From a virus: a stretch of 53,164 nucleotides of DNA. Positions 24,566 through 44,334 of this stretch are shown here, piece after piece (position 1 is the stretch's first letter; every line of letters starts with the position of its first letter). The DNA is taken from positions 1 through 53,164 of IMG/VR virus record IMGVR_UViG_3300047322_000616; one strand, given 5' to 3'. The translations under genes and the position numbers were made by a program. Below the pieces are notes generated by a model. The model saw nothing but the letters and a program-made list of their open reading frames with translations, had not been told where the DNA came from and searched no databases.

Positions 24566-25776
24566 TAGTGATTTTTCCAAGCTGGCATCGCGTAAGCCGT
24601 GCCTGAGTTGGTGAACCAAACCCAAGCGTCGGGCACAGTTACGCCAATCGTGACGCTGGTTGGAGCCTGATTGGTTGGTAGGTTTCTAAAGTTGTTGGTG
24701 GCTCCAAAGCCTCCCCTTATGATTAAATCTCCGGTGGGAGAAAGGGCCATGTTGGTAGTGCCGCCAGCAAAGGCTTGCGTTCCCACTTTCCACACAAATC
24801 CCCCGTCATTACCTGAGTTGTCTCCATCGGCCGCAAACTGAGTGTCGGACAGTGACCTCACCAGCAACTCCGACGAGGCGTAATAAATATCGGCCCCCCC
24901 AAATTTTCCAAATGGACCGTCCGTTGTTTGATAAGAACCCCCGAGCATACTGATCATGCCATTAACGCCTAACGTGGAGCCCCCAAGTGATGCACCTCCA
25001 ATGTTTACCTTGCCGCTCGCGCTCAACGTGTCATTCGTCGGATTGTAGATGACCCCCGCCGCGCCGTTGGTTGGCACCAGCCGGAAGGAGTTGCTGACGG
25101 TGCCTGCGCCGATGAACTGGCCGGGGACAACCACGGTGCCGTTGGCGATGCCCAGCATGATCTGGTTGGTGTCGGTGGTTGCGGCGCGCTGGCCGAGAGC
25201 GGTTGAGTTTGCTTGATTTACAGAAGCTAAAAAACCAAAAGCCAAGGTGTTGCTGGCTAACGCGGTGGCGCTTGGACCAACAGCCATTGAAAAGGGTTGA
25301 GAGGCTGAGGAGAAAGTCCCCATTGCGAAAGAACTGTCTCCTTTGGCGCTTGCCGCTGCGCCTACCGCAACTGCCGCGTTTGTGGAAAATGAAAAATACC
25401 CTATTGCAACCCCAACGCTTGCCTTATTGGTGGCAAACGGACCAATGGCCACGCCTCCAAAATCTCCGGGGTTGTTGGTAAGGGCAGATGCAGACGGACC
25501 AATCGCTACCGCGTTATTCTGATTTACAAAGCTCAGAGGCCCAACCGCAAGGGAGTTTGTCCCAACCACGTTTGCGCCCCGCCCATAGATGCTTGAGGAG
25601 AAGTTGGTCGCGCTCGCCAAATCGAGATTGGTCACGGATAAATTCTTGGCGTCGATCATCGGTCCTGAATTCGTCGTGAACGGGGAGTGGATAATTGGAG
25701 GCGGGAACTGGCCGTGAGCCCAGACGCACCCGAACACCAGCCAAACCAGCGTGGAGAGTCGAATAAAGGTTTTCAT
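24565..25776 (-). CDS. Secreted protein with YadA-like head repeats
   Basis: 403 residues from MKTFIRLST, an ATG overlapping the stop of the gene before. A signal peptide ends about 22 (AHGQ). Between about 60 and 210 it has many repeats of the form (V/A)AIGP.A.A.. and VAVGAAASAKGDSSFAMG, the left-handed roll repeat of trimeric autotransporter heads. The C-terminal half is Gly/Asn/Thr-rich. Similar repeats occur in phage tail fibres, but a signal peptide on such a protein is unusual. It may be a host-surface or moron-type product. Confidence 0.7.
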   Translation of the reverse strand: MKTFIRLSTLVWLVFGCVWAHGQFPPPIIHSPFTTNSGPMIDAKNLSVTNLDLASATNFSSSIYGRGANVVGTNSLAVGPLSFVNQNNAVAIGPSASALTNNPGDFGGVAIGPFATNKASVGVAIGYFSFSTNAAVAVGAAASAKGDSSFAMGTFSSASQPFSMAVGPSATALASNTLAFGFLASVNQANSTALGQRAATTDTNQIMLGIANGTVVVPGQFIGAGTVSNSFRLVPTNGAAGVIYNPTNDTLSASGKVNIGGASLGGSTLGVNGMISMLGGSYQTTDGPFGKFGGADIYYASSELLVRSLSDTQFAADGDNSGNDGGFVWKVGTQAFAGGTTNMALSPTGDLIIRGGFGATNNFRNLPTNQAPTSVTIGVTVPDAWVWFTNSGTAYAMPAWKNH

Positions 25777-26132
25777 ACGATTTGTTGGGCGATAGCCGAA
25801 AGCTGCATCAGCAAAATGTCGTGCTCGTTGGGACCGCAATTATAGCATTTGGCCTGCTTCATCAGGTTGGTCGGTGTCACGTCGGCGGCCGGGTTCTTGA
25901 CCAGCACAAGCTGGGCGAGCAGGGCCAGTTCCAGCAGCGGTCGTTGGTTGGCCGGGACGCAGGCGTAACACTTGGCCTGGTTCATCAGAGTTTGTGCGGT
26001 TGTGTCAGCCACGGGATTTTGTCCTTTCAACAGTTGCGCCAGGAGGGCGACCTTCATCAGTTCCGGCGAGTCCGAATCGCCGCAGGTGTAGCACTTCGCC
26101 GCCGACAACAGGCTTTGGGCGTCATAGGCCAT
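25773..26132 (-). CDS. CxxC-repeat protein with three repeats
   Basis: 119 residues made almost entirely of three copies of a roughly 40-residue unit: LLSAAKCYTC, LMNQAKCYAC and LMKQAKCYNC, each followed by an LLxxALLAQ helix. The paired Cys suggests a metal knuckle or disulfide between units. Same family as 26427-26837 and 26844-27215. Late position next to the capsid genes suggests a virion or assembly role; function unknown. Confidence 0.75.
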   Translation of the reverse strand: MAYDAQSLLSAAKCYTCGDSDSPELMKVALLAQLLKGQNPVADTTAQTLMNQAKCYACVPANQRPLLELALLAQLVLVKNPAADVTPTNLMKQAKCYNCGPNEHDILLMQLSAIAQQIV

Positions 26133-27610: not shown

Positions 27611-29137
27611 TTATACGGTCCAAGGCAAATTCACGTTGGTGCAGACAGCTCCGGTCAGCGTGATGGTGGTGCCGGACGCTACCGCCCAGGTGCCCATCGC
27701 CGCCAAAAGGTTGTTCATCTGCGTCACCAGGTTTGCGAGCGTCTTGGTGCCCGTGATGGCGTCGTGGAAGATCGGAAGCCCGTTGCAAAGAACGCTGTTG
27801 GCCGGGATCTCGTAGCTGGCCGTGTCCGGGTCCAGCGCCGGCGTGAACGTAAGCGTTGTGTTCGCCGTCGGGCAAAGCGCGTTGGCGCTGCCGTAGGACT
27901 GAGGATAAGGATACGGGACGTTGCATAGCGGCACGTCCACGATGCAGGCGGGCTCGCGCAGGGCCAGGAAAGCCTCGGCAAACTCGGGATACTCCGCTTT
28001 CGTGGCGAAGCTGAACATGCTCTGGAACTTGCCCTTGTTCCTCCAAGAGTTGTCCACGGCGATTGGGTTGCCGTTCACGTCCAGGCCGCAGGTCAGGTTG
28101 TCCATCGCGAACATCCATTTGCCGGCAAAGTCGCGCATGGCAAAGGGCATCTCGGGATTGATCGCGGTGCTGTCGCGCACCAGCGAGGTCATCGCCATGC
28201 GGTGCCAGATGAAATCCAACTGGATCGTGGCGTTCTGGTAGTCCTGGTTGACCGATTCCTTGATGCCTTCGGTCGCGCTAATATTGGTGTAGGGGAACAC
28301 CAGGCGCAACTGCCAGGTGCCGTCGGCGTTCTGCACACCGATGTCCTGAAAGCGAAGCGGCATGGCGTCGGCGCGCATCCCGTAGTTTCCAATCTTCCCC
28401 ATCCAGCCGTACTTGTGATACTTCTGGGCGTCGGTGAAATCGGTGAAGCGCCAGTGGTCGGTCAGTTCGGGGTTGCCCTCGCAGATGTCCCACACGCCTT
28501 CCATGTCGAACACGAATTCGAGCATCGGCTGGGTGCCGTAGGATTTCTGGTCCTTCTCGCCCTTGTTCCCGACAACTTCCTCATCCAGCGCGCCTTCGAG
28601 GATCTGCGGGTGGACCCGGCGCTGCAAATGACGCGCGCCAATCTTGCTGGTCGGCCGCACGCTCACGTTCAAAATGGTCTGGGTGGCGTCCCAATACGCC
28701 GTGATCGCCGTCAAACCGCTCGCGCAAGCCCAATGATATTTGGCGATGCGCAAAGCTTCGGTGCGGAAACGGTGGCTCGTGATGATCGACGAGGCCCGGC
28801 GCAGCGTTCGGATGACGTGCGCGAACTGCTGCTTGGCGCGGTCGGCCGAAAGGATCTGGTCGAAGCAGAACAGGTCCGTGCCGTAGGTTTTGCGCTGCAA
28901 CTTGTAGCTGTCGCGCGTGAAGCCCAGGCCGATCTTGGTCTGCGTCGGATCGCAGGGCTGGCCCACGCAAGAGGCAGCGGTAACGTCCTCCCAGAGCCCG
29001 CGAAGGTCGGGAAACACGTTCTCGAAACGGTCAAAGGTGTGCTCCACGCCATCCTCGGCCTTGAAACGGCCGGTGGACACATGGCCGACCCAGGTTCCCC
29101 GGGGGTGGAGTGAACGAATGATCTCGTCGTCGAGATG
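27611..29137 (-). CDS. Major capsid protein, main exon
   Basis: About 508 residues remain after the intron, starting HLDDEIIRSLHP. It is the best major-capsid candidate: placed after the scaffold and GroES genes and before the small acidic protein, of the right size, rich in aromatic residues and beta structure, with a Cys-containing C terminus. The upstream reading frame runs through stem-loops of a group I intron, so its true N terminus must come from a separate small exon. The 3' splice site near 29137/29138 is inferred from the intron 3' end and the open frame. Confidence 0.65.
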   Translation of the reverse strand, partial: HLDDEIIRSLHPRGTWVGHVSTGRFKAEDGVEHTFDRFENVFPDLRGLWEDVTAASCVGQPCDPTQTKIGLGFTRDSYKLQRKTYGTDLFCFDQILSADRAKQQFAHVIRTLRRASSIITSHRFRTEALRIAKYHWACASGLTAITAYWDATQTILNVSVRPTSKIGARHLQRRVHPQILEGALDEEVVGNKGEKDQKSYGTQPMLEFVFDMEGVWDICEGNPELTDHWRFTDFTDAQKYHKYGWMGKIGNYGMRADAMPLRFQDIGVQNADGTWQLRLVFPYTNISATEGIKESVNQDYQNATIQLDFIWHRMAMTSLVRDSTAINPEMPFAMRDFAGKWMFAMDNLTCGLDVNGNPIAVDNSWRNKGKFQSMFSFATKAEYPEFAEAFLALREPACIVDVPLCNVPYPYPQSYGSANALCPTANTTLTFTPALDPDTASYEIPANSVLCNGLPIFHDAITGTKTLANLVTQMNNLLAAMGTWAVASGTTITLTGAVCTNVNLPWTV

Positions 29138-29480
29138 CTGTTTAATGTTATGCCGCCTTTGCGGCACCGTGTCATTTCTGGCACGGACTGGCGCTCACAC
29201 GCCAGAACAGACTATATCTTTACCCTTAGCAGGGCACTTGGCGCGACACGCTGCCTTGCGGCAACCTGCCCGGCTTCAATCTCCAACGAGATTTCTGCCA
29301 TAGTCGTTACACCTTCCGCAAAGTTGCCTCTGCGGCTCGGCTCGGTATTGTCTTGATTCAAGAGTTCCACCGAATTTCCCAAGTTTTTGGATCGTGCTTT
29401 GCGTTTTGCTAAGACGCTGCTTATAGCACGAGGAACGAGGCTATCGCGCTCCTTCTTGAGAGAAAATCCGTGAAAGCTGC
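29138..29480 (-). ncRNA. Group I intron (IA-like) in the major capsid gene
   Basis: Hallmark elements are on the - strand. The P element TTGGGAAATTCGG lies at 29370-29382. The P4 pairing TTCGGT (29369-29374) / ACCGAG (29341-29346) and the P5 hairpin TCTTG/CAAGA (29351-29363) follow. The R region AACGACTAT pairs with the S element AAGATATAGTC (29210-29220) to make P7, GACTAT/ATAGTC. P9-type hairpins CTGGCG/CGCCAG (29188-29206) and TGCCGC/GCGGCA (29150-29166) end the core. No endonuclease ORF is visible inside it. The 5' boundary and P1 are not fixed; the core is secure, the borders approximate. Confidence 0.8.
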
Positions 29481-29726: not shown

Positions 29727-30053
29727 TCAACAGAAAACTGCGAGCACGTCGTCCACGCCCACCAGCTTCAACGTCCTCGGAGGCTGGTTAAGCTGCCTCC
29801 CCGCACCCCGGCGCACGATAACCCGATCCCCCAGGCCAAACCCAAGTTCGCCGTTGTGCGCCCCAATCTTCCTTACCACGCCCTCAATCGGCGCAGGCTG
29901 CCCAGCCGACCGCCGTTCTTCGTCGATATACACGGCGTAGGCTTCTGGAAAGGCGATGCCCCCGGCGCTCACGGGCGGATCGCAGACCTCGATCAGCACC
30001 TGATTGCTCAGGGGCGTGATGTTGGTAACGCGGTAGGTGCGGCAGTCGATCAT
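29727..30053 (-). CDS. groES-like: GroES-like co-chaperonin
   Basis: 108 residues from MIDCRTY. The ATG overlaps the methyltransferase stop (ATGA), and AGGAGG lies 12 bases upstream. Visible hallmarks are ITPLSNQVLIEV (first strand), SAGGIAFPE (mobile-loop/roof region), EGVVRKIG, GFGLGDRVIVRRGAGRQL, and a VDDVLAVF end typical of GroES. GroES caps GroEL and folds proteins; phage versions, such as T4 gp31 by analogy, help fold the major capsid protein. Immediate placement before the capsid gene supports this. No GroEL is present in the window. Confidence 0.8.
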   Translation of the reverse strand: MIDCRTYRVTNITPLSNQVLIEVCDPPVSAGGIAFPEAYAVYIDEERRSAGQPAPIEGVVRKIGAHNGELGFGLGDRVIVRRGAGRQLNQPPRTLKLVGVDDVLAVFC

Positions 30054-30742
30054 GCGAGCGATAAAACCTCCTGTTGCAAGCGCCTCGCGGCGATCTCGCA
30101 ATAGCGTTCCTCAATCTCGATGCCGATAGCTTTGCGCCCAAGGTCTTTTGCGGCGCGGAGTGTGGTGCCGCTGCCCATGAACGGGTCGAGGACCGTTCCA
30201 TTTGTTTTACTGAACCCAATACACCAGCGCATCAACTCTGCAGGCTTCTGGCAGGGGTGAAACTTTGGTCCGTTGGCGACATTATCCTCACCTTCTCGAA
30301 CCAGACCCCTCCAGAGTTGTCTCCAAATCCGCGTGGACATATCCAAACTGGTCCAGCAAAGCTCACAGTCTCCGAAGGCGCACGGTTCCTTGTCTCCGAG
30401 CTTGTCCCAAATAAGCCACCCGCGAGAGTCTGGAAGTTTCGAGGCGTAATTATTTGCGCCCCAAAGCATCACTTCTGGAAACTCAAGGAATGGAGAAGGG
30501 TCAAACGGAGTCTTGTCGCCATTTTGCAACGGCACCCACTTCGGATCTCTGTCAATTTCCACTCCTGCGTTTCGGCCAAAGCCCAAACCTGATTTTCTGG
30601 ACCGTGTCGCATTTACTTTGAACCCAATGCCGTATTGAGGATCGGTGAGCACCAGATCCACCTTGGGCAGCGTCGGTAAAATCTCCCGGCAATCACCGTG
30701 GTAAATTACGATGCCTCGCCCGTCGTCGTAGTACGGGGTCAC
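30050..30742 (-). CDS. DNA N4/N6-type methyltransferase (beta-class order)
   Basis: 230 residues from a GTG that overlaps the scaffold stop. The catalytic motif IV is TDPQYG (D34-Y37, DPQY instead of the usual DPPY). The SAM-binding motif VLDPFMGSGTT lies near residue 187, followed by GIEIEERYCEIA, so the order is catalytic first and SAM motif last (beta class). Such enzymes methylate adenine N6 or cytosine N4 and protect phage DNA from restriction. No companion restriction enzyme is seen. Confidence 0.8.
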   Translation of the reverse strand: MTPYYDDGRGIVIYHGDCREILPTLPKVDLVLTDPQYGIGFKVNATRSRKSGLGFGRNAGVEIDRDPKWVPLQNGDKTPFDPSPFLEFPEVMLWGANNYASKLPDSRGWLIWDKLGDKEPCAFGDCELCWTSLDMSTRIWRQLWRGLVREGEDNVANGPKFHPCQKPAELMRWCIGFSKTNGTVLDPFMGSGTTLRAAKDLGRKAIGIEIEERYCEIAARRLQQEVLSLA

Positions 30743-32488: not shown

Positions 32489-33799
32489 TCAAGCGTCTGG
32501 TGCTAAAATCGTTTCAGGCTCAGGAATGGGCTTGTCGCTGAACTCCATCCCGGCTTCCTCAGCCACGGCGATCTCTTTGAGCAAATCGGCCAGGGACGAA
32601 AACTCGCACCTGAGTCCCGACGGCAATTTGTCCTTCAACCCGCGCAGCTTCTCGATGGCTGCCTGCATGGTTTTCCCGGTGGCGCACAGGTAGCCGACTT
32701 CGGCGCTGTGATACTCGGTGATGGGCACCAGGCACAGCAAATCGTCCACCCGGCAGCAGAAGCCGCCCTTGAGCGCCTCGTCCAGTTCGGCGTCCAGCTT
32801 GAAAGCGTTCCAATCCGTGCGGTCCCCGTCCAGCGTGACGTGCGCCTGCACAACAAATTCGTCCTCGGTTTCAGGCTCGACTAGTTCGCCGTTGGCACCG
32901 TGCCAGATGATCTCGCCCCAGTTCTTGATCAGCAGCATTTCGCCTTGGGACGGGGGGCTGCCAAATCTGCATGTCGGATCGATGAAGAAAGACTCGCCCT
33001 CTTTGGTGATTCGGACCTCGGTGGAAAACTTGAGCGCCCCGCCGTCGGTCAGTTCGTTCAGGATCGGTCCAAAGATTTCGTTCACCTTGCGGACTTCCTC
33101 GGGCAAATCAGCGAAGTCCTGCATCGTGCCGATGAACGCCTTATCCTTCTGCTCCATGCCGTGCAGGATTCGTTTGGGCCATTGGCCGGCCACACAGTAG
33201 GCGTCAACGCCGTCCTCAATCTCGGTGTCGATGGGGTCGAACACGTAGAACGTGACGTGATCCTTGAGCGGTCCAAAGCGCACGGCGTAGCTATCCAGCG
33301 TGCCTTCCATTTCGTCGTAACTGGTCCAGTGCAGGGTTTCCCAGTCGCCACGAAACTTGGTAATCTTAATATACTTTTCGTCATTCTCCTTAAGGTAGGC
33401 GCGGAGGTTGTCCAGTCCCTTGACGACGGTGTGCGGCGCGACGGGAAGCTCCGTGTCTTCCAGCGTGCTTAGGAAAAAGCCCTTGCCGCTTTCGAGTTTT
33501 GAGGCGCGCCCCGGTCCCCAGACGGCGTGGCCCATCGCCTGCAGCGCGGCTTGCTCTCCATCGAAGCCGATATCGGTGAAAACGAAAATATCGCACTCGT
33601 CGCGAACCCTCCACAGGCTGTCCACGCGCTCAATTTCGTCGAAGCCGTCGCCCACGACGCACTCACGGATCAAGGGGCAATCTCGCTCCTCGGGCGTGGT
33701 GTAATACACTTTTGAGAATTGCTTTCCCAGCGTGCGGGCAACGTGAGTGAACCGGCCGTGATCGACGACGCACGCGATTACTTCGGAAACGGGTTTCAC
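32489..33799 (-). CDS. ATP-grasp-type enzyme
   Basis: 436 residues, GTG start overlapping the previous stop (GTGA). It shows the ATP-grasp layout: an N-terminal Rossmann-like part (VIACVVDHGRFTHVARTLG...DIFVFTDIGFDGEQ), a lid-like glycine loop and KITKFRGDWETLHW in the ATP-binding region, and FSTEVRITKEGESFFIDPTCRFGSPPSQGEM near the metal site. The order resembles phosphoribosylamine-glycine ligase. These enzymes join a carboxylate to an amine or thiol through an acyl phosphate. The substrate is unknown. An ATP-grasp in a head-gene operon is unexpected. Confidence 0.7.
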   Translation of the reverse strand: MKPVSEVIACVVDHGRFTHVARTLGKQFSKVYYTTPEERDCPLIRECVVGDGFDEIERVDSLWRVRDECDIFVFTDIGFDGEQAALQAMGHAVWGPGRASKLESGKGFFLSTLEDTELPVAPHTVVKGLDNLRAYLKENDEKYIKITKFRGDWETLHWTSYDEMEGTLDSYAVRFGPLKDHVTFYVFDPIDTEIEDGVDAYCVAGQWPKRILHGMEQKDKAFIGTMQDFADLPEEVRKVNEIFGPILNELTDGGALKFSTEVRITKEGESFFIDPTCRFGSPPSQGEMLLIKNWGEIIWHGANGELVEPETEDEFVVQAHVTLDGDRTDWNAFKLDAELDEALKGGFCCRVDDLLCLVPITEYHSAEVGYLCATGKTMQAAIEKLRGLKDKLPSGLRCEFSSLADLLKEIAVAEEAGMEFSDKPIPEPETILAPDA

Positions 33800-34176
33800 G
33801 GGAGCGCCATCAGTTCTTGTTCGTAGAGCTTCCACGACACGCCCAGTTCGGCAGCCAGAACCCGCTCGATGCCAGAAGCGATGCAGTGCTGTTTCACGTA
33901 GGGCGCAGCGGGGTCGTCGCCGGGCTCGTCCTCGTTGCCCTTCACGCGCTTGCTCTCGAAATCAATGTCGAAATCGTCAACCTGCTTCTGCGTGATGCCC
34001 GCCTGTTTGCACATAAGCACTTCGGCCAGTTCATGCACGGCCACAAGGGCAACGTGCCGCCAGTCGGGCATTTCGCTTACGGCGATCATAAGCTCGTCGT
34101 CGTTAATCCAGATCCAATCCCCGACGGTGGGGTACCTCTGCTCGCTATGAGGGATGGTTTGGATCGTGATTTTCAT
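33796..34176 (-). CDS. Zincin-like late protein (HELxE)
   Basis: 126 residues. Contains AVHELAEVLMCKQAG, with H48, E49 and E52 as in HELxE zincin-like sites; a second zinc ligand is not obvious. The rest is acidic, with DFDIDFESKR. Coupled to the portal gene (stop overlap). It could be a maturation protease-like protein or a structural protein with a metal site. Confidence 0.6.
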   Translation of the reverse strand: MKITIQTIPHSEQRYPTVGDWIWINDDELMIAVSEMPDWRHVALVAVHELAEVLMCKQAGITQKQVDDFDIDFESKRVKGNEDEPGDDPAAPYVKQHCIASGIERVLAAELGVSWKLYEQELMALP

Positions 34177-36524
34177 TCAGTGATCTCAGGTGGTTTTTCC
34201 TTCGGCGTCCGCATCGCGCTGGTCATAACCTCGGTCAGCGCTTTCATCCGGTTGTGGCGCAACTCCTGCGCCGTCTCTATGTTTTTCCTTCGGATGTCCG
34301 CGTTGAGCTCGCGGTCCTTGCGCTGCTCCTGCATTTCGTACGACACCTGCTTCTGCGCCGTGCGGGCCGCGTGGCTTTGCTGGGTGTTCTGCGCCTTGAC
34401 CTTGGCCTGCATCATCATCCCGGCGATCTTCGCCTTCGTCTCCGGGTCAATGCCGCCGCCCTGCCCGTTCTGCTTGCCCATTTGCTCCTGCAGCCGCTGC
34501 GCGAACGCTTTGATCAGGTTCTCGATCTTGCCCAGCGCATCCCCGTATTGCTTGATCTTCGCCTTGTCCTCGGGGTTGGTCGCCATAATGCCCAGGAACT
34601 GCTTGATCGCCTGGGCCATGTTGGCGAATCCCAAAAGCTGGTCGGGTGTGGCCATGCCGCCCATCTTCTGGGTCCGCATCACCATCATGGCGAGGTCTTT
34701 CAGCCAGACCTGAACGTATTCCTCGTACACCATTTCCGGCGAGGGCGTGAACGGCAAGCCGCGCAAGAGCCGGTCGCTGGCAAGCTGGGCGTCGTGGCCC
34801 GATCGGCTGATCGGCTTCTGCCCCTGAGTCGGCGCGAGCAACTCGGCCAAGGAAGGGTTGTCCGTGAACGCTTCGATGGCGATGTGATCGACGTGCCTCT
34901 GGCTCTCGGGCGGGAGGTTCTTGCGGAGCGCCTGCAACTGGTTGGCCTGGGCGATTTCGAGGGTCTTGTTGCCCCCGCCCATCACCCGCTCGGGCTGAAC
35001 GTCCCAGCGCTCAGCGTCGAGCATCTCGGGAGGAACGCCTTCTTTCAGGCAATCCTGTCGGAAATCCCTAGAGTCTTTATAAGGCGAGTTTTTGATGCAA
35101 AAGCGTCGTCCGATCTCGCGCCCCTTACCCACGGCGTAATCGTAGGCGAGGTTCAGCATCCCGCTCACCATCGCGTTGACGCTGTTGACGCGCGCCATCG
35201 TCTCGGTTGCGGTCATTTCATTCTGTTGCTTCTCGTCCAGGTCCTGAGTGTAGCTGGCGGCGTTTTCCTGCATGATCTGCCGGTTCATTCCGATGGCCGC
35301 ACTCACCAGGGCCATGTCGGGCTTGAACCGCTCGTTGGCCGGCACGAAGGCTACTCCGTTAGGGATAACTCCCATGTGAGTGAACATGGCCTTTTTGATG
35401 CGGTTGTAGGACTCCTGGCCGCTCACCCGGAAGAACCACATAAGCTGCTCGAAAACGCTCTCGGTGAACTGGCAGCGCAGCCGGTTCTGGAGGTCGCACA
35501 CGCCCCAGAGCATCCAGCCCAAGGAGCGCACGGAGTGATATTTGAACGGCGCCACGGCTGAGCAATCCCCGAACTGGCAGTGAATGATCTCGCTGATTCG
35601 GTCGGCGTACTTGCGCTTGCCGCTCGAGTACAGAAAGCCGCCGTGCTGTTCGGTGAGATGGGTATTCCTGCTGGTCGGAGCGGTTTTGCTGCTGCCCAAG
35701 TCGCCCTCGCCCACGTCCCAATCAAGGAACACTCGGCGATACCAACCCGTGCCGTCCTCCTGCTCACGAAAATAAAAGTCCCAGATATCCACGGTGGGCA
35801 CCGCATCGCTGCCCCAAAATCCCAAGTCCTGTTTCACCAACTCCTCGATGCGCTCGGGCATGTACTGATAAGCGGTCGCGTTGGGTTGCTTCTGGGTCTG
35901 CGCGCCGACGTAGGCCAGTTCGCCCTGGACGGCCCGCATATTCCAGCCGGGGTCCACTTTGGGTCCGTGCGTCAGGTTGTAAAGCTGGGCGGGCGTCCAC
36001 TCACGGAAGATGGCGAAGTATTCGACGTTCTCAAAGTTGATGTCCGTCTCGCTCGGAATCATCAAGCTCGAAATCGAAATCTCCGACGGCACCGGGCAGC
36101 GGCGATCCCGCCAGTTCACCGGGCCGATGCCGTGCAGCATCGTGCTCGCCCCGGTCGCACGCTCCTGCTCCATCATCAGCCGGTTGCGCTTGAGTTGCTT
36201 GTTCCAGTTGCGCGTGATGATGTGACCATACTCGGCGCGTTTGTGCGCGGGTCCACTGTCGAGCGTGACGGTGTAGTAATTGCCAGTACCAAGAAAGGCG
36301 CGGTTCCATTGGCGGCGCGCCTGCGAGAGCATGTTTGTCCCTTCGAGCCACGACCTGTTGATCTGCCTGGAGTTCTCCTCGTCCTCGGCTGGGTCAAACG
36401 GAGGGTGGCCGTTATACATTCGGTTGAGGATGGCGCGGTTTTCGCCGCGAGGAAGATCGGCGAGGCGCATATTCCAAACGCATTCCTCGACCGCGCCTAC
36501 GCTGGTAAATTTCATCGTAGCCAA
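34173..36524 (-). CDS. Portal protein
   Basis: 783 residues, long for a portal but usual in this kind of phage. It begins MATMKFTSVG with a helical, charged stem region. The middle (about 150-330) contains Trp/Tyr-rich strand segments. The C terminus is a long basic and Gln/Met-rich helical tail. No enzyme motif. Location between the packaging and scaffold genes supports a portal that forms the packaging ring and connects head and tail. Confidence 0.7.
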   Translation of the reverse strand: MATMKFTSVGAVEECVWNMRLADLPRGENRAILNRMYNGHPPFDPAEDEENSRQINRSWLEGTNMLSQARRQWNRAFLGTGNYYTVTLDSGPAHKRAEYGHIITRNWNKQLKRNRLMMEQERATGASTMLHGIGPVNWRDRRCPVPSEISISSLMIPSETDINFENVEYFAIFREWTPAQLYNLTHGPKVDPGWNMRAVQGELAYVGAQTQKQPNATAYQYMPERIEELVKQDLGFWGSDAVPTVDIWDFYFREQEDGTGWYRRVFLDWDVGEGDLGSSKTAPTSRNTHLTEQHGGFLYSSGKRKYADRISEIIHCQFGDCSAVAPFKYHSVRSLGWMLWGVCDLQNRLRCQFTESVFEQLMWFFRVSGQESYNRIKKAMFTHMGVIPNGVAFVPANERFKPDMALVSAAIGMNRQIMQENAASYTQDLDEKQQNEMTATETMARVNSVNAMVSGMLNLAYDYAVGKGREIGRRFCIKNSPYKDSRDFRQDCLKEGVPPEMLDAERWDVQPERVMGGGNKTLEIAQANQLQALRKNLPPESQRHVDHIAIEAFTDNPSLAELLAPTQGQKPISRSGHDAQLASDRLLRGLPFTPSPEMVYEEYVQVWLKDLAMMVMRTQKMGGMATPDQLLGFANMAQAIKQFLGIMATNPEDKAKIKQYGDALGKIENLIKAFAQRLQEQMGKQNGQGGGIDPETKAKIAGMMMQAKVKAQNTQQSHAARTAQKQVSYEMQEQRKDRELNADIRRKNIETAQELRHNRMKALTEVMTSAMRTPKEKPPEITE

Positions 36525-36556: not shown

Positions 36557-37816
36557 TCAAACGATCTCGATCTTCGGCACCGGCACGATGAACTTCACTC
36601 CCTTTTGCCGCGCCGCCGAGTTCTTCTCGAGTACTTCGGCAAGGAAGTTCCAGGCGAAGCAGATCACGTAATCCGGTAACTCGCGCAGGATCGCGCCCTC
36701 GTCGGTGATCGGAATATCGCTCCCTGGGCTTGTGGTGAACCATTTGCCAGGCGTGCTGTCCGAGATAAACGCCACGTCTTTGCGAGTGAACTTGCAGGCG
36801 TTCACCCAGACGGTGCTCTTGGCCGACGCCCCCAAGCCCGCCACGGTATGCCCGTCAGCAACCAGGCCGCGCACCATTGAGCCAAGGTCAGCGATTTGCT
36901 TCTGGGCGCGTTGCTTGAACTCGAACCATCTTTCTGGTCCCACGTTCTCAACCTCAAGGAAGGCTTTCACGCTGTCGCTGGATGGCTGGTTGGCCGAGCG
37001 CCGGCGCAACATCAGCAGGATCGCACCGCCGTGGATCGGGTAGCGGATAATCTTTTGTAGCTTGAACGGCGAATCCTTAAAGAGCGCCTTCATCGCGGCG
37101 ATGTTGAGGTAGCTCAGGTGCTCGTGGTAGATCGTATCGAACTCAGTGCCGTTCAGCAGGTCAGCCACGTAAGGCGTTTCGATGCAAACCAGTGTGTTCT
37201 CGGTGCAAAGCGCGTCGAGCGCCTTCACGAATCCGCGCCAATCGTCGATGTGGCAAAAGACGTGGCGGGCGATCACCACGTCCAGCGGCTTCAACAGCGC
37301 CTCCTTTACCTCGGTGGCAACCTGCTCGTTAAAGAGCGCCCGAACCGTTTTCACGCCTCGCCCCGATGCCAGTTGCACCAGATTCGCGGCAGGCTCAATG
37401 CCCCACGCGGTCTTGATGCCCCACCGCTCGCCCAGCACGGACAGCAGGCTCCCATCGTTGCTCCCAATCTCGACTACGCTGAACGGCGTTACCTCGTGCG
37501 CGATGTCCGTAGCCAACTGGTCGAAGTGCCGGCGCATCGTGTCGCTGTGACTGGTCGTGTATAGGTAATTTGAGTACAGGATCTCCGGCTTCACCACGAC
37601 GGAAAGCTGCGCCAGGTGGCACCGGGGGCACAGCAGCACTTCCAGCGGCGCATAACCCGCACGCTCCTCGCCCGCCTTGCAGAAGTCGTTAGCGAGCGGT
37701 TGGAGCCCCAGGTCGAACACAGGCAGAAGGCGCTCGCTGGACGGTGCTGATTTGATGCCGTTGGCGCCGATGGCGGCGTAGTTGCAACTTCTGCAACAGG
37801 AGTGAATTTTATACAT
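36557..37816 (-). CDS. NovU/TylC-type C-methyltransferase with N-terminal zinc site
   Basis: 419 residues. Cys pairs near the N terminus (C8, C11 and C63, C66, in LLCPRC) form the zinc module of the C-methyltransferase group. VVEIGSNDGSLL (about 114-125) is the SAM motif. TPYVADLLNGTEFDTIYHEHLSYL and the C-terminal GLGASAKST segment are typical of the sugar C-methyltransferase family that builds branched deoxysugars. The start overlaps the HNH gene by eight bases. Substrate unknown; the neighbouring glycosyltransferases favour a sugar. Confidence 0.75.
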   Translation of the reverse strand: MYKIHSCCRSCNYAAIGANGIKSAPSSERLLPVFDLGLQPLANDFCKAGEERAGYAPLEVLLCPRCHLAQLSVVVKPEILYSNYLYTTSHSDTMRRHFDQLATDIAHEVTPFSVVEIGSNDGSLLSVLGERWGIKTAWGIEPAANLVQLASGRGVKTVRALFNEQVATEVKEALLKPLDVVIARHVFCHIDDWRGFVKALDALCTENTLVCIETPYVADLLNGTEFDTIYHEHLSYLNIAAMKALFKDSPFKLQKIIRYPIHGGAILLMLRRRSANQPSSDSVKAFLEVENVGPERWFEFKQRAQKQIADLGSMVRGLVADGHTVAGLGASAKSTVWVNACKFTRKDVAFISDSTPGKWFTTSPGSDIPITDEGAILRELPDYVICFAWNFLAEVLEKNSAARQKGVKFIVPVPKIEIV

Positions 37817-38249
37817 GGCGGGTGTCTTTTTCTAATGCTTCACGAATTGTCCAACCTTCGTACAACCTCCTAGAAAGCTTTCCCTTCGGCATTTTAAGAT
37901 GCGCTTCCCACTGGCTCAACGTCATCACCATCCCGTCACATTCGACCCAATGGTTGGTGCGTTTGTTTAGGCATTGCTCAACCCACGTCACCCAACAGCA
38001 GTTTCCGGGGAAATAAGGACCGTTGTTGTCTTTTCTTTCAAGGAAAAGACCTGGCTTCCAGGTCGAGTGCATGTCCTTGATGAAATTCTTAACCTCCAAC
38101 CATTCTTGGCAGACAGTGATTCCCCTTCCTCCGTAATTTTTGTAGCTAGAATGCTTCGGGCTTGTGCATCGCCTTACCATGCTTCTCCAAACACTATAAA
38201 GCGGGTGGGGGTGTTTCCGAGACGACAATCCATGTTTGAATTCTCCCAT
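37809..38249 (-). CDS. HNH/AP2-like homing endonuclease (free-standing)
   Basis: 146 residues. Pattern of phage HNH proteins: LYSVWRSMVRRC, YKNYGGRGITVCQEWL, ERKDNNGPYFPGNCCWVTWVEQ, then a basic end (SRRLYEGWTIREALE). The small C-terminal part looks like an AP2-like DNA-contacting domain. Its 3' end overlaps the methyltransferase start, so it has been inserted between two enzyme genes without breaking either. Confidence 0.8.
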   Translation of the reverse strand: MGEFKHGLSSRKHPHPLYSVWRSMVRRCTSPKHSSYKNYGGRGITVCQEWLEVKNFIKDMHSTWKPGLFLERKDNNGPYFPGNCCWVTWVEQCLNKRTNHWVECDGMVMTLSQWEAHLKMPKGKLSRRLYEGWTIREALEKDTRHV

Positions 38250-38252
38250 AAT

Positions 38253-39326
38253 TCAATCCCATTTCTCGCGGTCGGCGATCATGAAATAAAGGTTCGTCCG
38301 GTACTTGATGCACTGCTGGCAAATCGGGTGATTGGTCCTGCGCTCGATCATCTCGTTGACGTTGGTGCTCAGGTAGTCGCCGATGGTGATGCGCCGGTCA
38401 GCCGTGCAGGAGCACATCTGGATCTTCCCATCGTGCCGGATGAACGTGAAGATGCCCCCGGCACCCACCGGGCACACGGAGCGCACCGGATATTTCTCGT
38501 ACATTTTACGCGCCTCCGTGGGCGGGATCTTGAGCCGGTCCATCGTGTCCCGCCATTGCTGCGAGACAGGCGGGAGCAGTGCGTTCCAATCTGGTTGGCC
38601 ATCCTGAACCTCGTAAGGCGTGGCCTCCGGGTCGTGCTCCCGGCAGTACTGGATCGTGTTCTCCATTGAGATCGCCCGCGCCGTGCTGGTGAACAACCCA
38701 ATGCCGCACTCGGCCGCAAACGCCCGCATCGGCTCCAGCTCCTCGCCGTTGTCCTTATAGACGTGGTAGTTGACAGAGATCGTCACCGGCTTGCTTAGCT
38801 TCGCGTTGGCTTCGCCCAGGAGCCGCATATTGGCCTTTACCTTGTCGATGTTGCCCCCGGCGTGGCCCTTCACATAGACCTCCTGCGTGAACCCGGACAG
38901 CGACACGATCATGTAGTCCAGCCCAGCGGCCAGCGTTTCGTCGAGGCGCTGAACGTAGTTCAGGTTGGTGGACATCTCGCAACGGAGCCCGCGCGCCTTC
39001 ACCGCGGCGATGCACTCAGGCAACCGGGGATTCAGGAACGGCTCGGAATTGCCGTAGAGAAACACGATGGCCTTGTTGTTTTCGTTGCGGATTTTGTCGA
39101 TGCACTGCTCCATTAGCGCCGGGTCCATCAGTCCGGTCTGGTGCTCGTAGCCCTCTTTGTTGCCCTTGGTGCAGGTCGGGCATTTGAGATTGCAGGCGCT
39201 ATTCACTTCGAGGAAAACACGCCACGGGCGCATGGCGCTTTCCAACTCGGTGATCGCGCCGCCGCCGTCGATGAGTGGTCGGCAGGAATCCCGATAAGCG
39301 GCTTCGAGTTCGGGTGAAAGAGTCAT
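38253..39326 (-). CDS. Radical SAM protein with SPASM-type C-terminal Cys cluster
   Basis: 357 residues. The CNLKCPTC motif (C45, C49, C52) is the CX3CX2C iron-sulfur site that cleaves SAM to a radical. VFLYGNSEPFLNP follows, the usual second motif. The C-terminal cysteines (CPVGAGG, CSCTADR, CQQC) are like a SPASM/twitch domain that binds further iron-sulfur clusters. Known relatives modify peptides, sugars or proteins. The substrate here is unknown. The overlapping ends with the glycosyltransferase genes point to a common pathway. Confidence 0.8.
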   Translation of the reverse strand: MTLSPELEAAYRDSCRPLIDGGGAITELESAMRPWRVFLEVNSACNLKCPTCTKGNKEGYEHQTGLMDPALMEQCIDKIRNENNKAIVFLYGNSEPFLNPRLPECIAAVKARGLRCEMSTNLNYVQRLDETLAAGLDYMIVSLSGFTQEVYVKGHAGGNIDKVKANMRLLGEANAKLSKPVTISVNYHVYKDNGEELEPMRAFAAECGIGLFTSTARAISMENTIQYCREHDPEATPYEVQDGQPDWNALLPPVSQQWRDTMDRLKIPPTEARKMYEKYPVRSVCPVGAGGIFTFIRHDGKIQMCSCTADRRITIGDYLSTNVNEMIERRTNHPICQQCIKYRTNLYFMIADREKWD

Positions 39327-40018
39327 GCGTAACAGGTGTAGGCTTTGGCCGGGGTCCAGTTTGGTCCGTGGTAATCCTTCACCAGAGGCAGTCGGCGACC
39401 GTTCCCGATCCAGACCTCAGATTCATACCTTGCCGACAAAGCCTTGAGGCCATCGGACTTTATTCGGGCACGGTCCATGATGGAAGGTAACGTAAGCAAA
39501 AAGTCAGCCTTGGCGAACCAGAAGTTTCCCGCCCACACGGATTGGCCGGGAGGCGTGTCCTTCCCCGTCATCCAGTGGCACCCAACCGATTCGTAGCCGC
39601 TATCCAGATCGCGCACGGTTTGCCGCCAATGCCGGATTGGCCTAGTCATGCAGTTGCGCCAGCGGTCGCACAGCCAATCCAAGCGTGGGTGAGTCGCGCC
39701 CTTGGAGTGGAAGTAGAGCACGTACCAACCGGAGTGCCCTGGCAACCACTTCTCGATCATGCGGATCGTGGGGTTCTCGCTGTGCGAGTCCAGGCCGTGC
39801 AACTCGATCTGCGCCTTGGCTGGGATGAACAGGTGAGCGACTTCGAGGGACTCCGCGCCGCCGTTGATCCCAACGTGGAACTCCTTTGCCTCAGCCAGCA
39901 ACCCGCTGCGCCGAATCTCGCTCATCTGGCCGTGAATGATGTTCACCGCGTTCATCAGGATCGCTGGAGGTTCACCCAAAAAGAACAAACAATGGTAAAA
40001 TACCGCCAAGGGTTTCAT
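39323..40018 (-). CDS. Glycosyltransferase-like protein 3
   Basis: 231 residues, starting MKPLAVFYHCLFF at an ATG overlapping the upstream stop (ATGA). Contains GWYVLYFHSKGATHP and a later WAGNFWF segment, a pattern of uncharacterised glycosyltransferase-like proteins. No DxD is obvious. Last of three tandem glycosyltransferase-like genes; it may transfer a sugar to an envelope or capsid glycan. Confidence 0.6.
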   Translation of the reverse strand: MKPLAVFYHCLFFLGEPPAILMNAVNIIHGQMSEIRRSGLLAEAKEFHVGINGGAESLEVAHLFIPAKAQIELHGLDSHSENPTIRMIEKWLPGHSGWYVLYFHSKGATHPRLDWLCDRWRNCMTRPIRHWRQTVRDLDSGYESVGCHWMTGKDTPPGQSVWAGNFWFAKADFLLTLPSIMDRARIKSDGLKALSARYESEVWIGNGRRLPLVKDYHGPNWTPAKAYTCYA

Positions 40019-40698
40019 CCGTGCGTGTGGAAGTAAGGCGGGAGGCACAGCCGATCCCCAGCGATCAGTCCGCTTTGGTTCCCTTTTTGGTAGCCGTTCG
40101 GATCGTCTCCCCAATTCTGCCAGAGATACTCCCTGGTCCAGGTCACTTCCCAAGACCGCAGTCCCTGAGCCGTTACCCAAGTCGTGAGGCAGTTTGGGCC
40201 GTGTTCAAATGGGAATCGCTGCCCCGGCTGAGTCACCCTCATTGGGTATTCGTTCATCAGTCTCGGCGGCAACCAAAACGCAGTTGTTCTCAGGTGTGGA
40301 GCCACCCCGAACATAGGGTTGCCGCGATTGCCCATCGTGCCGTAGAGCGCGTTGCCGTAGCGGGAGAAAGCCTGAGCCATGCGCTGGAGCCAGCATTTTC
40401 CGTTGAACCACGACGAAGATCCGAAGAACACCATGAGATCGCAAGGCGTGACCCGCGCCGCGTGCTGGAACGCGCCGATGTCGTAGCCGCTGTTGTCGTG
40501 CTCCAGCAGCGTCAGGTTGGGCAGGGCGCTGAACAGGCAGAGCGTTTCGCTGGTGCTGGTCGAGCCGTTGATCACCACGACGCTATCGTGCTCAATGCCG
40601 GGAGGGAAGGCGTGGTAGGATTGCAGAAATCGCACGGCGTACTCGAGATACTTATCACCGAGCATCGCGGGGAAAACGTAAGTGATTGCGATCTTCAT
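40015..40698 (-). CDS. Glycosyltransferase-like protein 2
   Basis: 227 residues. Begins MKIAITYVFP with a Rossmann-type start, then NSGYDIGAFQHAAR and DLMVFFGSSSWF. It is a paralog of the gene upstream: both share YH.FPPG.(E/D)HD, NG, NSG.DI and the LPP.L pattern. These resemble the rhamnan-synthesis (RgpF-like) group of glycosyltransferases. Start overlaps the previous stop (TAATG). Confidence 0.65.
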   Translation of the reverse strand: MKIAITYVFPAMLGDKYLEYAVRFLQSYHAFPPGIEHDSVVVINGSTSTSETLCLFSALPNLTLLEHDNSGYDIGAFQHAARVTPCDLMVFFGSSSWFNGKCWLQRMAQAFSRYGNALYGTMGNRGNPMFGVAPHLRTTAFWLPPRLMNEYPMRVTQPGQRFPFEHGPNCLTTWVTAQGLRSWEVTWTREYLWQNWGDDPNGYQKGNQSGLIAGDRLCLPPYFHTHG

Positions 40699-41399
40699 TA
40701 AGCGAAGGGTTGATCAGCGAACCTCGACCACTTGGCCTTCACGTCGGGCTCAGCCGTTTCCCAGCGGTCGCACAAGCCGATCCGCAGCAGGCAATTCTCC
40801 TGCGTGCCCCGCCACAAGATGTTCAGCGGCATACGCCACATGCGCGGCTCCCACTCACCATCCCACGTCACCAAGCGCACCGGATAGCCCAGTTGCGAGA
40901 GTTGCCGCCAGAACGCCCGAGGCCCGTGTTCGTACGAATACCTGTCAGCCTTCGTCACAACGCGCAACGAATAGCCCGCGATGAGCTTGGGCGGGCAGGC
41001 GAACCCCGTCGTGTTCATGTGCGGGCGCACGGCGTTGCTGCTGAACGCGCCGTACATCCCCGGCCCGTGCCGCTGGTAGGCTTCCACGAAGCGTTTCAGC
41101 CAACCCTCGCGCTGGAAGTACGCCGACTCGCCGAGGCACAGCATCAGGTCGTAGCCCGCGCAAGGTCCGCGAGCGGCTTCGATGTAGCCCGCGATGTCCT
41201 GCCCTTCATTGGAGCGGGCGAAGAACTGCGCGCGCATCGGGGCGAAGATAAGCCCGACCTCGGCGGGGAGCGGTCCACCGTTGCACACGATTACCGTGTC
41301 ATGATCGACGCCGGGAGGGTGATCGTGATACGTGGCCACGAAGCGGGAGGCGTAACAAGCCGTGAGCCAACCGCTCGTGACAGCCACGTACGCGATCAC
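40698..41399 (-). CDS. Glycosyltransferase-like protein 1
   Basis: 233 residues from a GTG that overlaps the previous stop (GTGA); the longer frame upstream is not needed. It is the first of two tandem paralogs, with IVIAYVAVT, FVATYHDHPPG and NEGQDIAGYIEAAR. The catalytic base is not evident. Probably acts on a surface glycan in the same pathway as the other enzymes nearby. Confidence 0.65.
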   Translation of the reverse strand: MIAYVAVTSGWLTACYASRFVATYHDHPPGVDHDTVIVCNGGPLPAEVGLIFAPMRAQFFARSNEGQDIAGYIEAARGPCAGYDLMLCLGESAYFQREGWLKRFVEAYQRHGPGMYGAFSSNAVRPHMNTTGFACPPKLIAGYSLRVVTKADRYSYEHGPRAFWRQLSQLGYPVRLVTWDGEWEPRMWRMPLNILWRGTQENCLLRIGLCDRWETAEPDVKAKWSRFADQPFA

Positions 41400-42073
41400 A
41401 ATCCTTGGTCTCGCTTGGCGATCCAACAGTGAGACGGGAATTCCCTCATCACTTCGGGCTTGGTCTTGGCTAGAATGTGATCCAGCGGGCACCACACTTT
41501 GAGTCGGTTCAGGCAGCGGCATACGTTGCAGGATTTCAGGGAGGCGTCACTTGGCGTCTCCAGTTTCAGATCAGCTCTCGCCGAAAGCGTGCTGCGAATA
41601 ATCTCAGCGGGCGCGGTCGTGTACCAACTGCCATCCACGTTCTGCGGGCACGCCACGCACGTTGCGGCGCGTTTGTTGGCCAAGTCCTGCGCGACGGGTT
41701 TCCCCCCGCTCACCAGCCAGTCCATCACCACGGCGGTTCCCTGTGCGGCGCGTCTAATGTCCGCAGCAGCCCCGGACACCAGCGCTAACATGCCCGGGGC
41801 TACCGATTTTGGGAGCGGGTTATCGGCTGAGAGCATCGGCGCTAGACCGAGGCGCATTCGTGTGTATTGTTCCAACTCATCGCCGACGGCGTTGAAGTCG
41901 GTGGAAAGTTGGTGCTTGATCGTGATGGCGGGGTTAGCGCGGCGCAGCTTGATTATCTGCTCCACGGACTTATCAAAACTCACCATCGCCATTGGGTTTG
42001 TCCATTGAGGGATTTGAGGCTGTACCCATGTCCAACCTCCTCCTGCTGGGAATTCGTGTCGATTGAAACTCAT
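41396..42073 (-). CDS. Conserved late protein with C-terminal Cys cluster
   Basis: 225 residues. The N-terminal two thirds are helical. The C terminus has CVACPQN, CNVCRCLNRLKVWCPLDH and HCW, a likely zinc-binding module. Function unknown. It is the first gene of the chain leading into the glycosyltransferases, and it may recruit or recognise the glycan substrate. Confidence 0.65.
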   Translation of the reverse strand: MSFNRHEFPAGGGWTWVQPQIPQWTNPMAMVSFDKSVEQIIKLRRANPAITIKHQLSTDFNAVGDELEQYTRMRLGLAPMLSADNPLPKSVAPGMLALVSGAAADIRRAAQGTAVVMDWLVSGGKPVAQDLANKRAATCVACPQNVDGSWYTTAPAEIIRSTLSARADLKLETPSDASLKSCNVCRCLNRLKVWCPLDHILAKTKPEVMREFPSHCWIAKRDQGL

Positions 42074-42082
42074 GGCTATCTT

Positions 42083-42535
42083 TTAAGGGTGATTCGCCTT
42101 CCACGCAACGCGCAAAGCCTTGCTCTGTTCCATGAACCGATGCCCGATGCGCTCGGCCAGTTTCGGCAGCAGGTGAATCGTGGCCTCGGCGAATTTAAGC
42201 CACGCGATTTGCTCTCCGGGAGCCAGCGTTTCCCATTGTTTATTTGTCCACGGACGATCTGGCAACAGTCCGAGTTTTTCAAACTCCGCATTGTCGATGG
42301 ACGCCGACAGAGGGCCGTTTGGTCTCGGATAATTGTACCCAAAAGTTCCACAATGCTGATAGAGGTTACGGGCGAACCATTCAAGGTCGCTGTCCTGAGT
42401 ATTCCCCATCAGGTTCGCACCCGCGTTGTGGAGGTAGCAGCCGATGGCGTCAACCTCGCGCTCGAAATCGTTGCGCGGGTCGAACGGCTTTTTCTTATTC
42501 AACGCCTCACGGTAAGATTTAAGTGCTTTTTTCAT
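42083..42535 (-). CDS. Conserved late protein next to terminase
   Basis: 150 residues, helical, with a basic start. Contains FDPRNDFEREVDAIG and WTNKQWETLAPGEQIAWL. The start overlaps the terminase stop. Possibly a packaging accessory, by position. Confidence 0.65.
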   Translation of the reverse strand: MKKALKSYREALNKKKPFDPRNDFEREVDAIGCYLHNAGANLMGNTQDSDLEWFARNLYQHCGTFGYNYPRPNGPLSASIDNAEFEKLGLLPDRPWTNKQWETLAPGEQIAWLKFAEATIHLLPKLAERIGHRFMEQSKALRVAWKANHP

Positions 42536-44334
42536 TGGTAGTTCAGTTCCAGTTTTTTGCGCTTCTGGTGCTCCGTCCGAATCTCGCGTTCCAGCCAGCG
42601 GTCCTCGGGTTCTTTCGCCGGCACGCTCATGTCCGGTATCCGCGCAATGGTGAAGCCCAGCCGTCGCGCCCCCTCGAGTACCGTCACGACGGCATCGGCA
42701 TCGTTGGGGCTCTCCCCAGCCCTCGCCTTGTATTCAGGCTTCGTCTCCAGCTCGTAGCGCTGGCCCAGCGGTCCCGGCACCCAGCGCCATTCGCGCATCC
42801 CGAATTGACCGGCCGCCTCTCTTGGCAGCGATCGCACCTGCCGCCCCTCGGTCGCCTCGCGCATCGAATACCAAAGCTCCGTCACAAACTTGCTGTATTG
42901 CTCGTTGCATTTGATGGGGCGCCGCTGGCCGGTCCTGGGGTCCATCGTGAACAGGTCATTGCTCACTGGCCTCTCGGTGGCCGGCCCGCCGAAATTCACC
43001 GCGTTCACCAGTGGCGATAGCTCGCGGGACATGCTCACGCCCAGCGTGGCGCGCATCCCGGCCTCGAAAAAGACGTTCTCGTAAGGCACTCCCAGCCGGT
43101 CGCAATCCGCCCGCGCAAACGCCGCGATCTGGTCCTCGGGTGTAACCGTCGAGGTTACAGATACCGGGATCATGATCATGGGCGCGAACGCGATTATGTC
43201 CTGGTTGCTGGCGTCCTTGCCAAACTCGGCGTAGCTGGCTTTGCAGGGGTCGCCGCCGTAGCCCGCGTCAATCCCGTACACCTTCGTTCTGGTACCGCTG
43301 CCCCAGACGGCATCCGTGAACGCCAGGCACCGCTCGCACATCTCCACCGTGAGCACGCGGTAGGTGTCCACTCCTGTTTTGCGCACTCCCATGATCAGCG
43401 TCCAGAACTGCGCGGAGTCTTTGCCGTTGCGCGCCGCCACCTTGTCCACGTCGCTCTGGTTGATGAGGTACGGGTAGCGGTTGAGCGTGGCGGCGTCGAA
43501 GTTGGGACTGTCCGTGCCGACGAGGTTGATCGTTATGCCGCCGTATTTGTTCTCCCAGGTGCAGGTCTTGGTCACTTCACCGATGGACGACCAACCGCCT
43601 TTGGGTTCGGCGAGCCTGTCCCCGGCCATGCCGTTGCCGCCGATGGGATTCATGGCAAAGACGCCCTTGAATTCGCCTTTGTCGATGGCGTCCAGAGTGC
43701 TGAGGTACACCAGGTGCATGAATTGGAGCTCGTCACCGAACAAACGGCGGCGCTTCTGTTTGATGCCCTGAAAACGCTGCATACCGACCCATTCGCCCTG
43801 GCCGCCGATGCACGGAACGCACACGATCCCCTTGCGGTGATCCCGCACGTCGCCCGTTTCGTCCAGTTGGTCGGTGAAGATGGCGTGCTTGCTGTCCACG
43901 ACGTTGCCGGCGAGTGCTCCCGGCCAGCGCTCCGTCGCGCGGCGAAACAAGTCTTTGAGATTGCCCCAGACGCGGCGCTCCAACTCGGACGTTCCGGTGC
44001 TTGAGACGAGCGAGAGCGTTTCGTTGGGGAAGCACCAGTAATCGCACAGGATGAATTTGCTGATGGTATTGGTTTTTCCGGTGTCACGAGCCCCTTGCAC
44101 GACCGTAATCCGGTTCGCGCACAAGTGCGTCAGGATCAGGTCGCTCCACCTATGGGAATCCTCCTCCGGCCAGAGGAGCGTCTGCATCTCCCTGAAATGG
44201 TGGAACAGCCCCGCGCCGCACGTCACGCCGTTGGGGTCAGTCCATTGTCCGCCCATCTGGATGCAGTAGCGTTCGATGTCCAGAGCGGTGTACGTCTCCG
44301 GCCAAACCATTTGGTACTTGGTGGTTTCGCTCAC
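42532..44334 (-). CDS. terL: Terminase large subunit
   Basis: 600 residues from a GTG overlapping the upstream stop. The ATPase has a Walker A-like GARDTGKT (81-88) and a Walker B segment RRRLFGDELQFM. The nuclease part has VYGIDAGYGG around 350 and FFEAGMRATLG, and ends with a third acidic PNDADAVV near the C terminus. It packages DNA into proheads and cuts concatemers. Marks the start of the packaging and head genes. Confidence 0.9.
   Translation of the reverse strand: MSETTKYQMVWPETYTALDIERYCIQMGGQWTDPNGVTCGAGLFHHFREMQTLLWPEEDSHRWSDLILTHLCANRITVVQGARDTGKTNTISKFILCDYWCFPNETLSLVSSTGTSELERRVWGNLKDLFRRATERWPGALAGNVVDSKHAIFTDQLDETGDVRDHRKGIVCVPCIGGQGEWVGMQRFQGIKQKRRRLFGDELQFMHLVYLSTLDAIDKGEFKGVFAMNPIGGNGMAGDRLAEPKGGWSSIGEVTKTCTWENKYGGITINLVGTDSPNFDAATLNRYPYLINQSDVDKVAARNGKDSAQFWTLIMGVRKTGVDTYRVLTVEMCERCLAFTDAVWGSGTRTKVYGIDAGYGGDPCKASYAEFGKDASNQDIIAFAPMIMIPVSVTSTVTPEDQIAAFARADCDRLGVPYENVFFEAGMRATLGVSMSRELSPLVNAVNFGGPATERPVSNDLFTMDPRTGQRRPIKCNEQYSKFVTELWYSMREATEGRQVRSLPREAAGQFGMREWRWVPGPLGQRYELETKPEYKARAGESPNDADAVVTVLEGARRLGFTIARIPDMSVPAKEPEDRWLEREIRTEHQKRKKLELNYQ

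Follow-up and report, generated by a model that had tools for sequence, protein, structure and literature searches.

A fixed slot for glycan-related genes between the terminase and candidate portal genes of an uncultured tailed-phage clade

Described phage glycosylation systems and the locus analyzed here

The mycobacteriophages Che8 (gp110), Corndog (gp38) and Myrna are described as glycosylating capsid or tail proteins with glycosyltransferases (GTs) of their own (Freeman et al. 2023, as cited in PMC12363180), and the F1 mycobacteriophage Maravista carries GT genes near the 3' end of its genome (PMC11256854). The gene block analyzed here occupies positions 36557-42073 on the minus strand of the IMG/VR virus record IMGVR_UViG_3300047322_000616 (53,164 bases, hereinafter the window) and resembles these systems in that the GTs are phage-encoded and the acceptors, demonstrated in mycobacteriophages and predicted here, are structural proteins. 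However, one or a few GTs have been described in mycobacteriophages, whereas this block is a multi-gene cassette for sugar tailoring and transfer that occupies a fixed slot between the packaging and portal genes, includes a C-methyltransferase and a radical S-adenosylmethionine (SAM) protein, and carries cargo that is swapped between phage lineages. The interpretation that we favor, with moderate confidence, is that this cassette, which belongs to a clade of uncultured tailed phages, builds a glycan and attaches it, most likely, to a virion protein.

Two other phage systems invite comparison. Cyanophage DSL-LC02 (OR032571), a large, metagenome-assembled member of the Kyanoviridae (PMC10611076), encodes a homolog of the sugar C-methyltransferase of the block together with nucleoside diphosphate (NDP)-sugar enzymes, several GTs and FkbM; the homolog lies between the genes for GDP-mannose 4,6-dehydratase and GDP-L-fucose synthase, with GT genes following. 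DSL-LC02 makes its own 4-keto sugar with the dehydratase, whereas the block lacks a dehydratase gene, and in the stretch of DSL-LC02 covered here, the operon is not at the junction of the terminase large subunit (TerL) and portal genes. The Gtr cassettes for O-antigen seroconversion are likewise phage-carried and encode GTs, but include a flippase and a polytopic glucosyltransferase; the slots described here contain neither and are not at an integration site. The enzyme classes involved and phage capsid glycosylation are already known; a survey of the open-licence PMC literature, which is incomplete in scope, found no glycan locus that is fixed between TerL and portal throughout a clade and combines exchangeable cargo with C-methyl/radical-SAM tailoring of sugars.

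Enzymes encoded in the block

The methyltransferase (MT) aligns over its full length with sugar 3-C-methyltransferases from the PDB (MtmC, 4rv9, E 1.1e-66; also TcaB9, 3ndi and 4e2x). It contains the same three domains in the same order, namely Zn-binding, SAM-binding and C-terminal (PF08421, PF13489 and PF08484, all above the cut-off), and retains the YxEH motif (FDTIYHEHLSYL, aligned to FDTIYHEHLSYI of MtmC), the residues of which we take to be catalytic. MtmC and TcaB9 act in deoxysugar pathways of actinomycete antibiotics. Judging from the full-length similarity to them, MT is a sugar 3-C-methyltransferase, in agreement with the NovU/TylC-type label given to it in a preliminary description of the window, and is predicted to methylate C3 of an NDP-4-keto sugar.

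The radical SAM protein (rSAM) contains a radical SAM core (PF04055, E 3.8e-10) with an invariant CX3CX2C motif (Cys45/49/52) and C-terminal cysteines resembling those of auxiliary clusters (residues 285, 305, 336 and 339). The best match in a PDB profile search is the sugar enzyme DesII (E 7e-6). The preliminary description called this protein a radical SAM/SPASM protein; the first part of the name holds, but the seven-Cys SPASM pattern (CX9-15GX4C ... CX2CX5CX3C) is incomplete, with C285...GxxxxC305 and C336xxC339 retained and the CX5CX3C part missing. From its cysteine pattern, rSAM appears to be better called auxiliary-cluster or twitch-like.

The three GT-like proteins, GTa, GTb and GTc, show no Pfam or PHROG match in their window versions, and only single members of the wider GT family match Glycos_transf_2 (E 1e-4) or RgpF. 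GTa and GTb are paralogs (33.7% identity, E 6e-36). A GT-A fold is confidently predicted for GTb from an AlphaFold model based on 51 family members (predicted local distance difference test, pLDDT, 95.9; predicted template modelling score, pTM, 0.92), for which the top Foldseek matches are the GT-A enzymes WrtF fucosyltransferase (E 6.6e-8) and SpsA; the model also resembles viral GT2-like and RgpF-like proteins. Through its identity to GTb, GTa probably adopts the same fold. The start of GTa is uncertain (a GTG codon at 41399 or 41435, the longest open reading frame (ORF) beginning at 41522), and GTc most likely starts at 40018; these positions lie downstream of the first start codons.

The full GTa/GTb alignment is too weakly conserved to be useful for scanning. 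A database scan started with the single GTc sequence returns no matches. The AlphaFold model of GTc (pLDDT 93.7) identifies the nucleotide-diphospho-sugar transferase superfamily in a Foldseek search (TM-score about 0.4), and profile comparison links the protein weakly to GTa/GTb. The family alignment reveals an HxKG...WR motif, which we take to resemble that of RgpF-type GTs, and GTc lacks the Lys/Arg-rich N-terminal nucleotide-binding loop of cytidylyltransferases. Given its modeled fold, GTc is a probable GT, which fits the earlier count of three GT-like genes, two of them paralogous.

Conservation and turnover of the slot in related phages

The preliminary description recommended a survey of whether the block travels together in other phages. 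The portal candidate, rSAM and the Cys-rich protein (Cys225) of the window were used as queries against IMG/VR and identified dozens of related contigs, from which 44 de-duplicated loci containing both Cys225 and the portal candidate were retained; the figures below hold for this group rather than for phages at large. TerL was recognized in 23 of the 44 loci, the others either ending before it or having diverged beyond the reach of the profile, and the left boundary of the slot was therefore measured from Cys225. GT-family genes are located between Cys225 and the portal candidate in 39 of the 44 slots. GTa/b-type and GTc-type genes occur together in 27 loci, each without the other in a single locus, and neither is present in 15 (p 1e-9). 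In a tree of 43 portal candidates, all 39 members of the main clade carry glycan cargo; the phages whose slot is empty or nearly so number four and lie on a distant branch. Random insertion is rejected because dozens of contigs contain the block at this position; matched folds and families, including that of the neighboring ATP-grasp protein, and a conserved slot were found in place of the unrelated folds or the isolated random insertions that the preliminary description had named as refutations. Among 50,697 records of isolate phages, searched with TerL, the portal candidate, Cys225, GTb and the c5 family, the block is absent.

By a parsimony count on the quickly built portal tree, the cargo itself changes at least 14 times (rSAM 6 times and MT 5 times). 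Besides the genes described above, other slots contain Methyltransf_24, TylF, FkbM, GT2, GT9, PLOD-type GT and DUF5672 proteins, a second radical-SAM family, and CmcI-like methyltransferases; the c5 family (17 loci) has no Pfam match and is tied to GTa by profile comparison. An RmlD-type reductase is encoded in four loci, every one of which also carries MT. Judging from these family assignments, the cargo is mostly glycan-related. A transaldolase/fructose-6-phosphate aldolase gene is present as cargo in loci L034 and L047 (L047:8435-9196). In addition, DNA methyltransferase genes are inserted between the slot GT genes (L003:3278-4114, L003:4782-5867 and L004:4361-5320, the C5 type being read from sequence); given such insertions of DNA methyltransferase and HNH genes among the GT genes of relatives, the slot seems also to gather anti-restriction and HNH genes.

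The slot cargo is under purifying selection: for GTa, GTc, rSAM and MT, dN/dS (the ratio of nonsynonymous to synonymous substitution rates) is about 0.04-0.3 when only unsaturated pairs are compared, the comparison over all pairs being saturated. The rSAM and MT genes co-occur across slots (10 loci with both, 3 and 3 with one of the two, 28 with neither; Fisher p 2.5e-5, ignoring phylogeny), and MT homologs are adjacent to, or within 10 kb of, cellular rSAM homologs in five bacterial loci (L076, L077, L079, L088 and L089). These loci contain genes for NAD-dependent epimerases or short-chain dehydrogenases/reductases, sugar nucleotidyltransferase-like and GHMP-kinase-like proteins and GTs, all named from sequence, and those with rSAM beside MT homologs (L076, L077 and L089) appear to be NDP-sugar loci.

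None of the 283 slot proteins has three or more predicted transmembrane (TM) segments when these are counted by a plain hydropathy rule, under which polytopic controls scored 6-9. Since no polytopic-looking protein was detected, the slots contain no flippase, polymerase or polytopic GT.

In the window (Table 1), all genes named in the preliminary description were found on the minus strand in a single operon orientation; an HNH gene inside the block, probably a homing-type insert, had been overlooked. The reported joining of genes by overlapping stop and start codons is confirmed by overlaps of 4 nt at Cys225/GTa, GTb/GTc and GTc/rSAM, 1 nt at GTa/GTb, and 8 nt at HNH/MT. From the terminase to the ATP-grasp gene, neighbors either abut or share 1-8 nt except for gaps of 3, 9 and 41 nt, and the overlapping arrangement spans TerL to g126. 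Promoter and terminator scans yielded no more sites than did shuffled sequences. Base composition gives no sign of a recent acquisition, as the GC content shows no departure.

Table 1. Genes in and around the slot of the window
Feature	Coordinates	Strand	Evidence
Terminase large subunit TerL, left anchor of the slot	42532..44334	-	PHROG 2, E 7e-10; homologs in relatives
150-aa protein, window-specific insert	42083..42535	-	No family match; seen only here among surveyed loci
Cys225, conserved Cys-rich (zinc- or iron-sulfur-like) core protein preceding the slot	41396..42073	-	32-homolog alignment
GTa, GT-A-type glycosyltransferase (predicted), GTb paralog	40698..41399	-	Identity to GTb; family alignment; fold inferred from GTb
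GTb, glycosyltransferase with predicted GT-A fold	40015..40698	-	AlphaFold model and Foldseek
GTc, nucleotide-sugar-transferase-fold protein, probable glycosyltransferase	39323..40018	-	AlphaFold, Foldseek, family alignment
Radical SAM protein (rSAM)	38253..39326	-	PF04055, E 3.8e-10; alignment; DesII profile match
HNH endonuclease, probable homing-type insert	37809..38249	-	phrog_3377, E 1e-49
Sugar 3-C-methyltransferase (MT), MtmC/TcaB9-like, Zn domain	36557..37816	-	4rv9 match; PF08421/PF13489/PF08484
Candidate portal protein, right anchor of the slot	34173..36524	-	Synteny and size only; conservation among relatives
PurD-like ATP-grasp protein, outside the slot	32489..33835	-	hhalign with PurD; PDB profile matches

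The Cys-rich protein had been considered part of the island. The gene is indeed present, but Cys225 is a core gene rather than slot cargo because it is retained in relatives with an empty slot (L072-L075) and is among the most widespread genes of these phages. It has no Pfam or PDB match, and an alignment of 32 homologs shows invariant Cys139, 142, 182, 185, 187 and 216. In three loci (L023:9989-10975, L027:2206-3195 and L052:687-1721), a tandem copy of the N-terminal half, about 101 aa long and ending in CCGH, precedes the full gene.

The gene at the other end of the slot is a candidate portal gene: its position and size fit that assignment, and it is conserved in relatives, but comparison with known portals by Pfam, PHROG, PDB profile and P22/N4 searches yields no match, so that the earlier label derives from synteny, as does that of the candidate capsid gene (27611-29167). 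As had been noted, an ATP-grasp gene lies just beyond the portal candidate, from which the gene for a 126-aa protein separates it; the ATP-grasp gene is conserved in many relatives. It aligns with PurD in hhalign over 352 columns (21% identity, E 2e-5), and 6 of its 7 matches in a PDB profile search are PurD, although these are individually weak (E 0.011-0.11). The 'cofactor' part of the original description is unsupported, as this PurD-like gene lies beyond the portal candidate and outside the variable slot.

Elsewhere in the window, an N6/N4 DNA methyltransferase gene (30050-30742, PF01555) adjoins a scaffold-like gene, a Mgm101/Rad52-type recombinase is encoded at 3831-5354 (plus strand; PF06420, E 2e-15), and a 2220-aa ORF (7527-14189, minus strand) has no Pfam match. 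The products of 24565-25839 (YadA-head-repeat) and 20650-21639 (He_PIG Ig-like) are probably tail fibre or decoration proteins and might serve as acceptors of the glycan.

The likely role of the cassette and its alternatives

The preliminary description envisaged capsid decoration, modification of the host surface, or synthesis of a small molecule. The glycan enzymes themselves and the joint occurrence of the block in other phages are strongly supported, the sugar chemistry of the cassette is well supported, and the combination of MT, the GTb and GTc folds, the DesII-like rSAM, the conserved slot with its glycan cargo and the lack of multi-TM proteins fits virion glycosylation best. The individual reactions, their acceptor and the benefit to the phage can be proposed as follows. 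The cassette would be translated together with the late genes of the head operon. As the block has no dehydratase, the substrate would be an NDP-4-keto-6-deoxyhexose of the host, which MT, possibly with rSAM, would convert into a branched sugar. The soluble GTa, GTb and GTc would then assemble a short glycan on a cytoplasmic acceptor, most likely a structural protein of the capsid, the tail or the vicinity of the portal, a virion protein from the same operon being presumably the simplest choice. The structure of the virion-borne glycan would shift as cassettes are exchanged between lineages.

Several observations weigh against this scheme. The acceptor, like the virion glycan itself, is a prediction, and the portal label derives from synteny. 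The rSAM and MT genes are missing from many slots, so that no single sugar can be common to all. GTa and GTb lack the DXD motif (the sequence that follows the DXD strand is G-S/E-S), and metal-dependent catalysis is therefore not assured; the predicted fold stands without this motif, and GT-A enzymes that work independently of metal exist, but the catalytic activity is putative. The activity of GTc is less certain because its best solved matches are cytidylyltransferases (KdsB and IspD, TM-score about 0.4).

A stronger version of the virion glycosylation hypothesis can be put forward only tentatively, namely that in the whole clade virions are obligately coated with a surface glycan of phage origin, which an exchangeable locus beside the portal gene would specify, yielding glycan 'serotypes' of virions, in the window with a C-methyl-branched sugar finished by rSAM. 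The proposed counterpart of such a slot is the bacterial O-antigen or capsule locus.

Phages often use GTs for host-surface modification, and the cassette might instead alter sugars on the surface of the infected cell (lipopolysaccharide, O-antigen or capsule), resulting in superinfection exclusion or receptor change. The nearest cellular homologs of rSAM and MT are found in loci resembling surface-polysaccharide loci, and lineage-variable cargo would suit variable host glycans. However, an envelope polysaccharide is an unlikely product because no slot encodes a flippase, a polymerase or a polytopic GT, in contrast to the Gtr cassettes, and this, together with the position of the cassette within the late head genes, where no gap exceeds 41 nt, disfavors a role at the host surface. 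A benefit to a prophage is unlikely as well because no integrase was found. Overall, we consider this explanation unlikely.

Slightly less probable still is that the GTs and rSAM act not on the virion but on a host protein or RNA (e.g., a defence or transcription protein) or on a precursor of bacterial glycolipids. Soluble GT-A enzymes can act on any cytoplasmic acceptor, but the late-operon position does not favor such a target, and the diversity of sugar tailoring exceeds what simple inactivating glycosylation would need.

Glycosylation of modified phage-DNA bases against restriction is improbable. The GTs of T-even phages act on DNA, and DNA methyltransferase genes are located nearby (30050-30742 in the window; loci L003 and L004), but the window has no thymidylate-synthase-family (hydroxymethylating) gene, the GTs of the block are of the predicted GT-A type whereas the T4 enzymes are GT-B, and an NDP-sugar C-methyltransferase and reductases fall outside known base-modification pathways. 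Finally, natural-product-like biosynthesis of a small molecule has only a slim chance of being correct, with no positive evidence in its favor. MT resembles deoxysugar enzymes of antibiotic pathways, and other slots encode TylF-like and CmcI-like methyltransferases, but such methyltransferases are found in surface-glycan loci too, and no aglycone-making enzyme was recognized in any examined slot.

Apart from a few mycobacteriophages, phage particles are generally considered to be unglycosylated. If the virion glycosylation hypothesis is correct, glycosylation would be a regular, diversifying trait of uncultured phages, as suggested by the presence of glycan genes in the slot of every member of the clade and by the repeated changes in their chemistry. 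The slot would also be a source of compact sugar-tailoring enzymes, and a virion glycan, if present, could influence how particles adsorb, how stable they are and how they are recognized.

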